Origin: Burkholderiaceae bacterium
GTDB lineage: Bacteria; Pseudomonadota; Gammaproteobacteria; Burkholderiales; Burkholderiaceae_E
Length of the DNA stretch: 32,953 nt
NCBI GenBank assembly: GCA_900299025.1
Contig: OMIE01000094.1
Span: forward strand, 1-32,953
Direction: 5' to 3'
The stretch's first letter is position 1; every line of letters starts with the position of its first letter. The notes under the pieces are model-generated. The model was not told the DNA's origin. It did no database searches and worked only from the letters and a program-made list of their open reading frames with translations. Below are positions 1 to 21,839 of this stretch, piece after piece. Both the position numbers and the translations under genes were made by a program.

Positions 1-805
1 ATGACGAAAAACTTTGACTGTTATGGCAATAGGTGCAATTAACGCCAAGCGAACCTGAGAAATGCATCATCAAGGCGTAGTTTGACTCAGTATGCTGCAA
101 ACTCTCAACTGGTCTTAGCGCTCTATCTTCGCCAGAGGGCAGTGCCTTCACGGTTTGAACTCGGATAGGCTCCTTATCAAGAAAGTAGGTCTTAAAGGGG
201 TCGTAGGGTAGCGAGGTCAACCCGACACCTGCTGCGGGTGTATTTTGGGCATTCCGCCAGCCAATGGCACCACCTTGCTTGGGCGCTGGCTGCTCAAACC
301 ACAAGTACTTCGGAACGGGTTGCCCGCGGTGACAGGTGTAGCAGGTCACACCGGTATCGGCCACATGCGACTTCCAAGTGCTATTGATGTGCATAGTCAT
401 TTGCAACATGCGGCGTGCCACGAGTTTGGTGTAGAGATCGTCGGACTCGAAATTGCCATTAGCGTGACAATAATTACAACCCTGCTCGGGCGATACCCAC
501 TGAGTCATTGCCGCCATGAGTCGTGTGAACTCGCCTACGCCCAGATCACCAAGCACTTGCACATTCTTGTATACCGCTGATGCTTTGGGACCATCACTGG
601 GCACCGAAGGCAAAGCTTCTGGCGCTTGGTTTGCTGCGAGCACCACCTGCTGCAAGCGAGGGTTATTGATTTCAACCATGCCCGTGCCGCGATAACCCAA
701 TTGCTGTGATTCCATCGGTGGGCGCTCGCAGGCTGCAAGACCCAGGCCGATGAAGCCAAGAATCATCCAGCGAATACCGAGACGATCCATGAAGTTAGTC
801 TTCAT
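1..805 (-). CDS. pufC: Photosynthetic reaction centre tetrahaem cytochrome c subunit (3' end cut by window edge)
   Basis: Periplasmic electron donor that re-reduces the oxidised special pair of the reaction centre. 268 codons are visible and the frame is still open at base 1. Residues 14-26 form a signal peptide ending in the lipobox LAAC (Cys26), so the protein is probably a membrane-anchored lipoprotein, as in Blastochloris viridis. Three CXXCH haem motifs are visible (Cys110-His114, Cys155-His159, Cys257-His261); the fourth expected in the family lies beyond the edge. The start ATG has AAGGAG seven bases upstream and overlaps the pufM stop as ATGA, so translation is probably coupled. It is the last visible gene of the puf operon. 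The identification rests on haem spacing, lipobox and position after pufM. Confidence 0.95.
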
Positions 806-1794
806 TTGCTCGCTCCTTGTTGTGTGAGGGCTGGGTCAACAATGACTGGACTGACTTCCGGGTAAGCAGGTGCAACGCCGTGCTTGACTGCCCATAAGTA
901 CCAGTTATCCACCACCGTGCCGGTAAGCAGGATACCGATGCCACCGGTGAGGGTGCAAAGCACTGCAAACCACCATGCCCAGCGATGAATCGATTCCATG
1001 GTCGCGTTAAAGCCCATGGTCCAGCGCCAAAACAGGGCTGCACGTTCTGAGGCTGTGCCTCGGTCGACGATTTGCTCAATCTCACGTTCGCCACCGTAAC
1101 GGCTGACAGCTAGAATTGTTGCACCGTGCATGGCGAACAAAAGTGCCGATCCGTATAAAAACGCGATCGATAGCATATGAAATGGGTTATAGAACAAATT
1201 ACCGTATCGAATGGATAATGCAGATGTCCAATCGAGGTGTGGGAAAATGCCATAGGGGACAGCCTCTGACCATGAGCCCATCAAGACAGGGCGAAACAGT
1301 CCAAGGACTAAAAAGAGCCAAATCGCCGAAGCAAAAGCCCAGGCCACATGCGTGCCCATACCAAGCGCTCTTGCACGTACATAAGTTCTTGCCCACCAGA
1401 GCATCACCGAAAGGAGCAGGAAAAAGCTTGCAATAACCCACCATCCGCCCTTGTTAAGTGGCGGCATCCGCAAGCCATACTCAGGCGGTGGCGGCTCTAA
1501 AGCGAGCCAGGGTAACTGTCGCACCATCTCAATAATGTTCCAGTTCACCGATGCCAGCATTGAGAAGCCGACGATCCAGAACCAAAGAACACCAAAGACA
1601 ATCGAGGCACTACCCAAGACCCCGAGGTAGATCGGTCCTATTTGAGCCTCACCGAATTTGCCAGCCCAATACAAGTACCAAGGCTCGCCTAAGCGCTCAA
1701 AGTCACCCCGTGGGAGAGGCAGACCGGTATGAGCGGGACCATGTGAGTTGGTGCGCAATTGCACCCGGGTGAAGAGGTTTTGATATTCGATCAT
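802..1794 (-). CDS. pufM: Photosynthetic reaction centre M subunit
   Basis: One of the two integral membrane polypeptides binding the BChl special pair, accessory BChls, bacteriopheophytins, quinones and the non-haem iron. 330 residues, the normal length, with five hydrophobic segments. The N-terminus ([13 protein letters not shown]) and the C-terminal stretch with [14 protein letters not shown] are characteristic of PufM. The frame is open upstream to 1848, but the ATG at 1794 is chosen because family homology begins exactly there and GGAG lies seven bases before it. The gene is 14 bases downstream of pufL and shares ATGA with pufC. The histidines in [19 protein letters not shown] and the IHRW motif provide the expected BChl and iron ligands. 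Confidence 0.97.
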
Positions 1795-1808
1795 GATGCC
1801 GCTCCGCC

Positions 1809-2633
1809 TTAAGACCAGATCGGTAGCCGCAGCCACCAGTTCCACCACTCAGGCCATCCACGTGTCCAGAATGGGCCACTGATCACAATACAAACCGCGC
1901 TAAAGAACACCGCAGAGATCGCAAGGAATAAGCCAAGCCTGTGAATCCCCAAGGTGCCGATTGAATAACCTAAGGTATCTCTGAAGAAGCTGTTCTCGTG
2001 CTCGGCGGTTTTGACCGGTTCACCTTTCATCGGGTTGGTCGCCGAGAGCACCAGCGCACCGTGCAATGCCAGGGCGAAGGTGGTGGTGAAAAACAGGCTA
2101 ACCGCGATCATATGGGCAGGGTTGTAGTGGAAATGCAAGTACTGATAGCCCACGTTTGATACCCAGTCGAGGTGGCTAATGATGCCGTAGGGAAAACCAT
2201 GTCCCCATGCGCCGAGTAAGACGGGCCGTATCACCACCAAAGTGAAGTAAGCAAAGATCGCCACTGAAAACGCAAATGGCACATGCAAACCCATGCCGAG
2301 CTTTCGCGCGATCTCAACTTCACGCAAGGCCCATGAACCAAACGCGCCGAGCGCACACACGGTGACAACCTGCCAAATCCCGCCTTCTTTAAGCGGTGCA
2401 AGGCCTAGCCCGTACTTAAGATCGGGCGGGGCAATGTTGATTTGCCAAATATTCCAAGTGTTGGTGAGCGAGGTCCCATAGAGAATCATCGCTGTGCCGA
2501 CAAAGGTAAAAAATACCGTAAGCACGCCGAAAAAACCGACATAAAAGGGACCTACCCAGAAATCAAATAGATCACCCCCTAGCAGGGTGCCGCCGCGTAC
2601 CCGATACTTTTTCTCAAAACTGAGCATGCTCAT
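1809..2633 (-). CDS. pufL: Photosynthetic reaction centre L subunit
   Basis: L polypeptide of the type-II reaction centre, partner of PufM in the heterodimer that binds the primary electron-transfer cofactors. 274 residues, the usual size. The N-terminal [20 protein letters not shown] and [12 protein letters not shown] stretches are diagnostic, and the histidines in [14 protein letters not shown] and [10 protein letters not shown] fit the BChl/iron ligands. The start at 2633 has AAGGAGG seven bases upstream; an in-frame ATG two codons later is less well placed. It is separated from pufA by 209 bases holding strong hairpins, the standard puf layout in which antenna transcripts outnumber reaction-centre transcripts. 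Confidence 0.97.
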
Positions 2634-2842: not shown

Positions 2843-3016
2843 TTACTTCGCCGGTGCTGCAGCTGCTGCCTTGGCAGGCAGCGGCTTGGTGTCGATCCAC
2901 TGGTACCGGTCGCTGCTTAGAACGACCAGATGGATCATGAACGCCAGGGCAGCCATCCAGATGCCTGTCGCCACGATCGCTTTGCGCGGATCGATTAGTC
3001 GCCAATATCGCCACAT
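2843..3016 (-). CDS. pufA: Light-harvesting complex 1 alpha subunit
   Basis: 57-residue core antenna alpha polypeptide forming the inner LH1 ring around the reaction centre. The N-terminus (MWRYWRLIDPRKA) is the classic LH1 alpha signature. It is followed by one membrane span with the BChl ligand His29 and by Trp40 in SSDRYQWI, which typically hydrogen-bonds the BChl. The tail is short and Ala/Pro/Lys-rich. The ATG at 3016 is chosen over the upstream frame because family homology begins there and GGAGG lies eight bases upstream. It starts 19 bases after orf73, whereas most puf operons have pufB directly upstream. Confidence 0.95.
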   Translation of the reverse strand: MWRYWRLIDPRKAIVATGIWMAALAFMIHLVVLSSDRYQWIDTKPLPAKAAAAAPAK

Positions 3017-3035: not shown

Positions 3036-3257
3036 TCAACTGAGATGCGACATAAAGGTATAGACCGCCGCCCGAACGCTAGGGATCAGTGAACCTTGAC
3101 CCTCAGCTCCCGGAAACCAGGTTCGCCAATCCCAGGCAACCAGTTTTCCCATCAGCGCTATCGAAAGAATCACGATAAATCCAATGATAAAAATCAGATC
3201 GAAACCCCTTGATGATTCGGCGGGCTCGAGCAAAGCTTGTCTAGTACCGTATGTCAT
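3036..3257 (-). CDS. Small single-span membrane protein between pufB and pufA, LH1 beta-like but lacking the BChl-ligand His
   Basis: 73 residues; ATG at 3257 with GAGG about nine bases upstream, 13 bases after the pufB stop and 19 bases before pufA, so surely co-transcribed and translated with them. The polar N-terminus (1-18) is followed by a hydrophobic span (about 19-42), then WDWRTWF (42-48) and a 25-residue tail that could form an amphipathic helix. Aligned without gaps on the C-terminal half of PufB from this operon, [12 protein letters not shown] matches GKLVAWDWRTWF, and the BChl-ligating His36 of PufB falls on Lys38. The only histidine is His71. It is not PufQ or PufX by sequence as I recall them. 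Inference: a pigmentless beta-like ring or gap subunit. I do not recognise a named family. Confidence 0.8.
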   Translation of the reverse strand: MTYGTRQALLEPAESSRGFDLIFIIGFIVILSIALMGKLVAWDWRTWFPGAEGQGSLIPSVRAAVYTFMSHLS

Positions 3258-3270
3258 GGCCAGATTCCTC

Positions 3271-3417
3271 TTAAGGGGTAAACCAGGGACGCCACATCCA
3301 AACAAGAATGTGCGCTATGACCGCAACCACGGTGTGCAGCGCCCAGCCTTGCATGTAGTAGCCATGGAACTCCTGGCATTCCTCATCGGTCAGACCGGAT
3401 ATGTTGGTTCTGCTCAT
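3271..3417 (-). CDS. pufB: Light-harvesting complex 1 beta subunit
   Basis: 48-residue outer-ring LH1 antenna polypeptide. The N-terminal [17 protein letters not shown] matches the conserved beta region (including His18). The membrane span carries the BChl ligand His36, and the chain ends in the conserved WRPWF. GGAGG lies ten bases before the ATG. It begins 33 bases after bchZ ends, so bchCXYZ read-through into puf is likely, as in other purple bacteria. No pufQ-like gene sits between bchZ and pufB. The gene is followed not by pufA but by the 73-codon beta-like gene. Confidence 0.95.
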
Positions 3418-3450: not shown

Positions 3451-5007
3451 TTACCGCGCGTGCAAGACGCGGCCGGACACGTCAACCCCTTGCTGCGGAT
3501 CGACGCACGAACCGAGCCGCTCACGCGTCTCGGAGTGCTCTAGATGCTTGCTTACGCCTTGCAATTCAGCCCCTTGCAAGCCCTCATCGCAGAGCAATTC
3601 AAGCAACACCCCATACTCAACGCGCTCAGCTGCTTGTGCCTGAGCACGCTGCTCGGCCTGATCGCGTAAACGCTTTGCCGCTGAGATTCGAATCAGGAAG
3701 GGGAGTTGACTTATACTTCGTTCTAATAATTGTTCTGCCTCTGCGGCCCAGGGCAGCTGCCTTCTAGCTGGCGTTGGATCATGCTGATCCAGTTCTGTCG
3801 CGATCGGCAGAATATGAAAAAGCGCATCAAATAAGGCGTTGCAAACTTCCTGAACGACATAGCAGGCACCCGAGTAGCCCATAAAGGGCGTGCCGGTGTG
3901 GCGTCGAATAATTGCACCAGGAAAAGAGGCAGGAATATACGCAGCACGCTTGCCGCATTCAGCCAAATACATGCGTTCGTTGTAGCTTCCGAATAAAACA
4001 AGCGGCGTCTTGGTCTTGATCAGTTGACGGACTTCATCGTTGGCTGTCTTTTCACCTGCTCTGCGCGGCACCGCGAATTGACAGGGTAAGCCAAGATCTT
4101 CCTCAAGAAAGAGCTTTAGTCCCCGCGTGTAGGTCTCATTAGCAACAACCGCAAATGAGGCGCTTGCAAAAAAGTCCTGGGTGACGGATCGCCATAAATC
4201 CCAGATCGGTTTTAGCGTGCTCTGCTTTTCACGCTCGATAAATGGCTCGGGATCGATGCCAATAAGTTCCCCAAGCGTTCTTAAAAATTCGGTGGTGCTA
4301 TGCAAACCAATGGGCGCTTGCAAATAGGGACGCTCAAGGGCCTCACAAAGCATGCGGCCGTATTCCCGGTACATGCAAATATTGACTTCGGCTTGGGCGA
4401 GCTTAGGTATTTGCTTGAGTTCTGTATCTAAGGGGAAAATTAGGTTGATGTCGCAACCCATGGCTTCAACCAAGCGGCGAATCTCAGCCAGATCAGAGGG
4501 CATATTGAAGCTGCCATACATCGGTCCGATGATGTTGACCTTGGGCTTTTCGCCTTCAGAACGGGGCTTAAGCTTGGGAAGCTTCTTTGACCCGTATTCG
4601 CTCCAGAGCCACATCAAGGCACGATCGGCACTTTGCCATTGATCCTCATCAATCGTGCGTGGCAAGAAGCGCTTAATGCCACTGCCTTCTGGGGTAACAC
4701 CGCCGCCAATCATCTCGGCGATTGAACCTGTCACAACCACCGCAGGCTTTGTAGGATCGAGGCTTGCATGGGCTCGCTTCATCGCACCTTCGGTGCCATG
4801 CTGACCCAGCTCTTCCTCTGCAAGGCCTGTAACCACAATCGGTAATTCATGGGGTGGCAGGGCATCGGTGTAGTGAAGTACGGAAGTCACAGGCAGGTTT
4901 TCGCAGCCCACGGGCCCGTCGATAATGACCTGCAAGCCCTTGACCGCGGTAAAGGCATAGACTGCCCCCCAGTAGCCCCCTGCCCGATCGTGATCGATTA
5001 CGAGCAT
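3451..5007 (-). CDS. bchZ: Chlorophyllide a reductase subunit Z
   Basis: With BchY this forms the catalytic, nitrogenase MoFe-like component of chlorophyllide a oxidoreductase (COR), which reduces ring B of chlorophyllide a using electrons from BchX. 518 residues. Cys35 in [10 protein letters not shown] is at the position known in BchZ as the single ligand it gives to the shared [4Fe-4S] cluster. The C-terminal domain contains [20 protein letters not shown], a hallmark shared with BchB/ChlB. After that it extends about 70 residues in a Gln/Ala/Glu-rich tail. The ATG at 5007 has GAGG seven bases upstream and lies inside the last codons of bchY (10-base overlap). Confidence 0.96.
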
Positions 5008-20788: not shown

Positions 20789-21265
20789 TCAGTCGTCGGG
20801 TATGAGGCGTTTTCCCATCGCAAGCGCTTGATCAACACGATAGCCTAAGCGTTCGTAGAAGGCGCGTACAGCCTCGTTGTCGCTACGAACCAAAAGGCTT
20901 AGCTTCGGACAAGCTTCGGCTAAAAGCAGACTTTCCGCCTCTGCCATGAGGGCACGCCCAATGCCTCGGCCCTGCCAGCGCGGATGTACCGCAAGATAAT
21001 TCACCCAGCCGCGATGCCCTTCGTAACCAATCATGATTGAACCGATAAGCTCCCAGCGCTTCGCACTGCGTTGTACTTCGACAACGCGCAGCCATTGCGG
21101 CCGGTTTGCCTGTTTCCGCTCGATATCGCGGTAAGGATTGTTCCAAGGTCGGACCAGACCGCATAGCTCCCACAGAGCAACAAGCTTTTCTCGATCCTCC
21201 GGCGCATAAGCACGAATGAGCCAATCGCTCGGTGCTTGTTGCTCGATCGCCTCAGCGCGAGACAT
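20789..21265 (-). CDS. GNAT family acetyltransferase, YpeA-like
   Basis: 158 residues. The LWELCGLVRPWNNPYRDIERK segment, IMIGYEGHRGWVNYLAVHPRWQGRGIGRALM (acetyl-CoA pyrophosphate loop Q/R-G-x-G) and the ending AMGKRLIPDD match the YpeA subgroup closely. The substrate of this group is not established. AAGGA lies eight bases before the ATG. The start overlaps the end of the upstream acetyltransferase gene by 14 bases, indicating coupling. The stop lies 79 bases before bchI on the same strand. Confidence 0.85.
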   Translation of the reverse strand: MSRAEAIEQQAPSDWLIRAYAPEDREKLVALWELCGLVRPWNNPYRDIERKQANRPQWLRVVEVQRSAKRWELIGSIMIGYEGHRGWVNYLAVHPRWQGRGIGRALMAEAESLLLAEACPKLSLLVRSDNEAVRAFYERLGYRVDQALAMGKRLIPDD

Positions 21266-21839
21266 GACGCCAGTCCTTGTTGATGCATTGGGTGATCAGG
21301 TGATCACGCCAGGCTCCCCGGACCCAAAGATAAGCAGCTGCCAAACCGATGTCTTCAAAACCGCAATGCCTAAGCACAGCAAGACTCGCCTTGTTTTCGG
21401 GGAGCACAGAGGCCTGAAGACGATGTAAATTAATCGACGAGGTGAAAAGCCAGCGCTTGGCCGCAGCCAGTGCCTCTTGCATATAACCTTTGCGATGATG
21501 CGACTCGGCGATTGCGTAGCCAACACGTCCGGAATAAAAGGCACCCGCCGTTAAGGCGTCAATTTTCACCCACCCAATCAGCTTCGAAGGCGCCTCGCGC
21601 AAACGAATCCAAAAGCGAAGGCTTTCACCTCGCGTCCAAGCAAGGCCTTCGGATTCAATCAGTTGCAAGACATACTCAGCGCTTAGCTGTGCGCGGTCGA
21701 TGACCGGGTTCCAGTAGCTGAAGTATGCGTGGTTACTGAGCATCAACTCATAGATTTCAATCGCGTCGCAGGCTTGACCTGGTGTAAGCACCAAGCGATC
21801 GCTGTGCAAACTCAAAGGTGCCGGTGCTTTGATCGGCAT
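21252..21839 (-). CDS. GNAT family acetyltransferase, RimJ/RimL type
   Basis: 195 residues. Motifs of the RimJ/RimL N-acetyltransferase group: SDRLVLTPGQACDAIEIYELM at the N-terminus, VGYAIAESHHRKGYMQEALAAAKRWLF (acetyl-CoA loop) and ASVLPENKASLAVLRHCGFEDIG. Members modify protein N-termini or small molecules; the substrate here cannot be assigned. The upstream ribosome-binding site is weak. It is coupled to the YpeA-like gene by a 14-base overlap, making a tandem pair of unrelated GNAT subfamilies. Confidence 0.85.
   Translation of the reverse strand: MPIKAPAPLSLHSDRLVLTPGQACDAIEIYELMLSNHAYFSYWNPVIDRAQLSAEYVLQLIESEGLAWTRGESLRFWIRLREAPSKLIGWVKIDALTAGAFYSGRVGYAIAESHHRKGYMQEALAAAKRWLFTSSINLHRLQASVLPENKASLAVLRHCGFEDIGLAAAYLWVRGAWRDHLITQCINKDWRHVSR

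Follow-up and report, generated by a model that had tools for sequence, protein, structure and literature searches.

The window, meaning the whole 32,953-nucleotide stretch of Burkholderiaceae DNA that was analysed, carries on its minus strand, in this order, bchZ (3451..5007), pufB (3271..3417), a further gene termed X (3036..3257), pufA (2843..3016), pufL (1809..2633) and pufM (open frame 802..1848, the real start of which is probably internal), followed by a pufC-like frame that is truncated at the window end. The pufB gene encodes a short form of the LH1 beta chain with the ligand residue His36, and pufA encodes LH1 alpha. Gene X, recognized from its open frame, from profile searches and from the loci of relatives, runs from an ATG at 3257 to a stop codon at 3036-3038 and specifies a beta-like protein of 73 residues that lacks the ligand His. 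It is preceded by a GAGGA box resembling a ribosome-binding site (3266..3270, minus strand). These coordinates and the box agree with the sequence-only reading of the region, which had placed a 73-codon gene with its own ribosome-binding site between pufB and pufA. The gap from the pufB stop to X is 13 nt and that from X to the pufA ATG (3016) is 19 nt, pufA having a GGAGGG box of its own. No PufQ-type ORF was matched in the bchZ-pufB interval of the window. Elsewhere in the window (20789-21839, minus strand), two neighbouring open frames named by eye as acetyltransferase-like lie beside bch genes.

An AlphaFold model of X, of modest confidence (mean pLDDT 65.7), contains helices at residues 17-40 and 57-72. 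The former is the predicted transmembrane (TM) helix (3138..3209, minus strand), and the latter falls in the conserved C-terminal region of the alignment, the PufQ-type tail (3042..3089, minus strand). X therefore combines a single TM segment with a conserved C-terminal region, as does PufQ. In a 55-row alignment, A64 and Y66 were invariant in every row and the tail was well conserved. The added tail of the sequence-only reading is thus a conserved element, but the amphipathic character suggested for its helix gained little from a hydrophobic moment of 0.36, a value reached by 7.1% of 2000 shuffles. Counts of Lys and Arg favoured neither membrane topology, and a Foldseek search with the model gave one match, which was meaningless.

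Lys38 of X (GKLVAWDWRTWF; codon 3144..3146, minus strand) aligns with His36 of PufB, the residues and their alignment being exactly as first described. Among 123 distinct X sequences this place is occupied by Gln (85), Ser (13), Lys (10), Thr (9), Ala (3), Gly (1) or Leu (1); one sequence (L108) was not parsed here and has Lys by eye. His was found in none of the 123. The earlier claim that X cannot ligate bacteriochlorophyll (BChl) in the usual way is a fair one, but Gln, the replacement most often seen, is a chlorophyll ligand in plant LHCII. In the 55-row alignment the small residue ahead of the ligand place, W44 and the WRxW motif are all retained, whereas the beta N-terminal motif SGL..E..EFH is missing from the X consensus as compared with the beta consensus. 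With Gln at the ligand place in 85 sequences, and with the preceding small residue and W44 in place, X might still ligate BChl via Gln, Lys or water and act as a special beta chain of shifted absorption. The occurrence of Ser, Ala, Gly or Leu in other members, together with the lost N-terminal motif, makes this very unlikely.

Outside the TM segment and the tail, the 55 rows are variable, which is what a decaying beta duplicate or an untranslated spacer would lead one to expect. Such an origin is nevertheless exceedingly improbable, given a median dN/dS of about 0.15 (range 0.06-0.64, 16 pairs), the invariant A64 and Y66 and a frame that is open at the same place in 142 loci. An untranslated spacer, which the sequence-only reading had named as an outcome contrary to its proposal, is excluded by the low dN/dS, the lack of any change at A64 and Y66 and the conservation of the tail. 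X is a conserved protein gene under purifying selection.

The sequence-only reading had regarded the insertion into pufBA as unusual and had proposed that pufB-pufA intervals be compared in relatives. The order pufB-X-pufA proved to be the commonest among the photosynthetic Burkholderiales sampled. Reaction-centre genes were present in 48 of 399 genomes of the order, and X was found in 38 of these; the others had a Q-type ORF upstream (3), a long-tailed beta (5) or a contig edge (2; G216 and G365). The X profile gave 49 matches among the 399 genomes, ten of which were not X: three were ordinary betas with a Q-type ORF upstream (G140, G257 and G287), five were long-tailed betas (G101, G235, G248, G320 and G349) and two were weak matches in genomes without a reaction-centre match, left out of the X count (G172 and G407). 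One genome (G340) has X without a reaction-centre match, its contig stopping ∼240 bases past X. Within the family of the window, reaction-centre genes occur in 27 of 74 genomes, with X in 23, a tailed beta in two (G033 and G035) and a contig edge in two (G041 and G048). Here the profile gave 27 matches among 74 genomes, four of them not X, namely G031 (E 0.0099, a 757-residue frame in a genome without a reaction-centre match) and the tailed betas of G033-G035. Named carriers of X, among the 80 of 122 relatives kept, include Rubrivivax gelatinosus, R. benzoatilyticus, Piscinibacter and Limnohabitans. In the assembly of G042, pufB-X-pufA occurs on each of two contigs (L004/L033 and L030/L034) and the two X differ, so that either two operons or mixed strains are represented. 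An unusual alpha chain is encoded by pufA of L006-L014 and L016 in the family of the window (MWRYWRIVDPRKAIILTGLLIAFVSTSIHLIQISGDRYNIN...), strongly unlike the common alpha after the ligand His.

A profile of 55 X members was compared with the PDB, where antenna chains, most of them named beta, made up the top 40 of the best 50 rows. The leading matches were 8z81_B (2.7e-16), 9m8m_B (6.8e-13) and 7xxf_B (1.8e-12). All were antenna chains from other organisms and none was close to X. In hhalign, X scored 46.0 against short PufB; the best of 100 profiles in which the columns were shuffled and the TM segment was held in place reached 25.4. Alpha ancestry of X was also considered and was rejected, 3 of 100 shuffles equalling the real score against alpha as compared with none of 100 for the short beta. 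Judged by these profiles, the true homologues of X are the antenna beta chains and not the alpha chains. The beta likeness asserted in the sequence-only reading is thereby upheld, and the profile search that it had recommended placed X among antenna beta chains rather than in an unrelated family. The curated LH1 beta models (PF00556 and NF040862) did not pick up X: the X of the window had no Pfam or NCBIfam match, and the Rubrivivax X reached 13.7 bits against a cut-off of 61. For the Rubrivivax L subunit the PDB gave 9m8m_L as the best match, but the two sequences disagree at many positions, and 9m8m was therefore not taken as a structure of the Rubrivivax complex. Chain 4 of PDB entry 8k5o (105 residues, X profile 4.2e-4) has an antenna domain and occurs once in its entry, and is a possible precedent for a single-copy antenna-like chain.

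The gaps of 13 and 19 nt make co-transcription of pufB, X and pufA likely, and in Rhodopila gamma-like chains lie between the betas (PMC9640540); X could by analogy be a multi-copy ring subunit, comparable to the gamma chains in Blastochloris or Rhodopila, that is inserted between one alpha-beta pair and the next. This is quite unlikely, since the Rhodopila chain has 22 residues and an inverted orientation (PMC9640540) and X is a tailed beta homologue.

In R. gelatinosus (L048 and L050) the pufB-pufA interval contains an X homologue. The puf operon of Rubrivivax has been described as having two ORFs to which no function is assigned (Nagashima et al. 1994, as cited in PMC12817894), and by position the Rubrivivax X is ORF2, which occupies the same place upstream of pufA. 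In PMC12817894, ORF2 is given as of unknown function and is compared with alpha chains alone, with 10-14.5% identity to PufA2 and the alpha His missing. No link of ORF2 to beta or PufQ was found in excerpts of the open-licence literature. The earlier remark that no named family of this position and sequence is known is not supported, in view of ORF2 (PMC12817894) and of the matches to ORFs at the pufQ position described below.

In alpha- and gammaproteobacteria the X profile also detected small ORFs in the bchZ-pufB interval, the place of the Halorhodospira gene named pufQ (PMC8877833). Twelve such PufQ-position ORFs were taken from genomes found by the X profile and were picked by position and partly, by eye, for their tails; the sample is therefore biased toward X likeness. 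hhalign aligned X with these 12 at 98.1% and 36% identity over 59 columns that include the tail, the score of 64.9 being approached by none of 100 shuffles (best 24.3). All 99 distinct X sequences matched the profile of the PufQ-position ORFs at E<1e-3, as compared with 65 of 99 for the short-beta profile, and the former outscored the latter for 92 of 99 (Z=1000 in the detection of these ORFs, the cross-profile counts and the locus survey). Conversely, the X profile at E<1e-3 matched 6 of the 12 ORFs, and short beta was matched by 3 of the 12. By profile comparison, then, X with its tail is matched most closely by the pufQ-position ORFs found in other purple bacteria. One of these ORFs, upstream of pufB in L143 (1084-1332), has a His at the beta ligand place (AHFMPKKWRGW) and is a possible beta/PufQ intermediate.

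Fifteen Rhodobacteraceae PufQ sequences were gathered with PF05398. The PufQ-position ORFs aligned with them in hhalign at 82% in one comparison and at 88% in another, in which none of 100 shuffles did as well. These ORFs were also linked to short beta (0 of 100 shuffles as good), and beta chains came first among their PDB matches (8z81_B, 1e-8). The direct comparison of X with Rhodobacteraceae PufQ was weaker (75-86%, 0 of 100 shuffles) and covered the N-terminus and TM segment alone. The X profile matched none of the 15 PufQ sequences, the Rhodobacteraceae PufQ profile at E<1e-3 matched none of the 99 X and Pfam PufQ (PF05398) did not match X at E<=10. For Rhodobacteraceae PufQ alone the comparison with beta was not significant, 13 of 100 shuffles doing as well, and a PDB search at E<=10 gave no match. 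Because no significant PufQ-beta link was seen and the direct X-PufQ link is weaker, the argument goes via the PufQ-position ORFs as intermediates.

The tree, calculated from 80 rows and 77 columns, placed X in one group (100/94), and the Q-type ORFs and PufQ fell together on one side of a branch (99/97), PufQ being nested among those ORFs. Support for X, Q and PufQ against all betas was 77/51. A grouping of X with the tailed betas of Burkholderiales was not rejected (p 0.35), and descent of X from a tailed beta would be compatible with this test.

The 204 loci fetched overlap, include the window locus several times and in part lack an order label; their counts are therefore not independent. 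The order pufB-X-pufA occurred in 142 of the 204, the beta ending 1-3 residues past WRPW in 141 (one was not parsed). Among Burkholderiales without X, L184-L186 (one genus) have a Q-type ORF, found later by profile, upstream of a short beta, and L025-L027, L188, L189 and L202-L204 have a His-bearing beta with an X/Q-like tail of 21-28 residues (27-28 residues in L188, L189, L202, L203 and L204; L025 is truncated by a contig end). The X-less genomes of the order sample in which the region could be read followed suit, three with a short beta and an upstream PufQ-like ORF and the other five with a tailed beta. No Burkholderiales locus with whole pufB and pufA was free of a tail or had two tail matches. 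Each operon of the Burkholderiales loci examined thus has a single such tail, borne by X, by a PufQ-like ORF upstream or by beta itself. The pattern fails outside this order, where the short beta of L147, L148, L166 and L167 is accompanied by no upstream match and where, in several alphaproteobacterial loci, a tailed beta occurs together with an upstream ORF.

A PufQ-type job in pigment handling and assembly, performed on a beta scaffold, is put first for X because of its likeness to the PufQ-position ORFs and, through them, its putative homology to PufQ, taken with the phenotype of the Rba. sphaeroides pufQ deletion, in which 6% of BChl is left (PMC5725709). By this analogy, which we adopt tentatively and at slightly less than even confidence, X would be produced together with beta and alpha and would lie in the membrane beside nascent LH1. 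Its weak-ligand site (Gln or Lys) may briefly hold or pass on (bacterio)chlorophyll or carotenoid, and the tail helix may dock X to a partner, be it an assembly factor, the reaction centre or cytochrome or a tetrapyrrole enzyme. Docking would keep pigment supply matched to antenna synthesis, and X need not stay in the finished ring. Ferrochelatase and carotenoid were recovered together with Rba. sphaeroides PufQ (PMC5725709), the only PufQ for which ferrochelatase binding and control of BChl synthesis are known. Bauer and Marrs 1988 (as cited in PMC5725709) noted that PufQ resembles reaction-centre helices, and groups without pufQ are reported in PMC3176799 and PMC11762602. Against a PufQ-type role stand the position of X inside pufBA rather than at the operon head, the lack of matches to Pfam PufQ and, for all 99 X, to the Rhodobacteraceae PufQ profile, the weaker direct hhalign link, the low support (77/51) for X with PufQ, the tree test that did not reject descent of X from a tailed beta and the breakdown of the one-tail pattern outside Burkholderiales. 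In a true beta, the C-terminal tail would be expected on the periplasmic side. This too counts against the role, as the PufQ C-terminus and its ferrochelatase contact are predicted to be cytoplasmic (PMC5725709).

As the sequence-only reading proposed, X might instead have a structural role like that of PufX or protein W. Present once or a few times in each LH1 ring, it would stand in for a beta chain but carry no BChl, and would thereby interrupt or gate the ring so that quinone can be exchanged. The true beta homology with its retained WRxW and the gene position between pufB and pufA speak for this, and the reading is kept because the same tail on ordinary His-bearing betas of some Burkholderiales shows that the module can live in a ring. 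It is nonetheless doubtful, as X-like Q proteins occur at the pufQ position, the beta N-terminal motif is lost and the antenna chains that X matches in the PDB all come from other organisms, none being close to it. PufQ is not known from the solved Rhodobacter rings. An unlikely but broader proposal would unite PufQ, Rubrivivax ORF2/X and the long beta tails as a single module. This would be a beta antenna chain without the ligand that occupies one position in the LH1 ring as it grows, sets the timing of pigment delivery and leaves a quinone gap. If true, it would explain the single tail per Burkholderiales operon on X, Q or beta and would make X the betaproteobacterial counterpart of PufX and W. 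The pigment-handling and ring-gap readings predict different deletion phenotypes and copy numbers, and X offers a natural ligand-less beta chain with which LH1 ring assembly or gating could be tested.

Photosynthetic Burkholderiales seem to own a PufQ-type protein with a beta scaffold, the gene for which is concealed in the pufB-pufA interval. If this is correct, PufQ gains a structural ancestry and the old Rubrivivax ORF2 a testable role. Among known systems, PufX and protein W are, like X, small proteins with a single TM segment and may share a ring-gap role; the PufX gene lies after pufM. The tailed LH1 betas (8z81_B, 7xxf_B and 9m8m_B; L188, L189 and L202-L204) are homologous to X in the TM segment and WRxW and have a similar tail, but they retain the ligand His and the N-terminal beta motif, neither of which X has. 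PufQ (PF05398) and the PufQ-position ORFs resemble X in size, in the one TM helix, in the conserved C-terminal region and in belonging to the puf operon, whereas X differs from PufQ in lying between pufB and pufA rather than between bchZ and pufB, in having no PF05398 match and in its beta-like WRxW.
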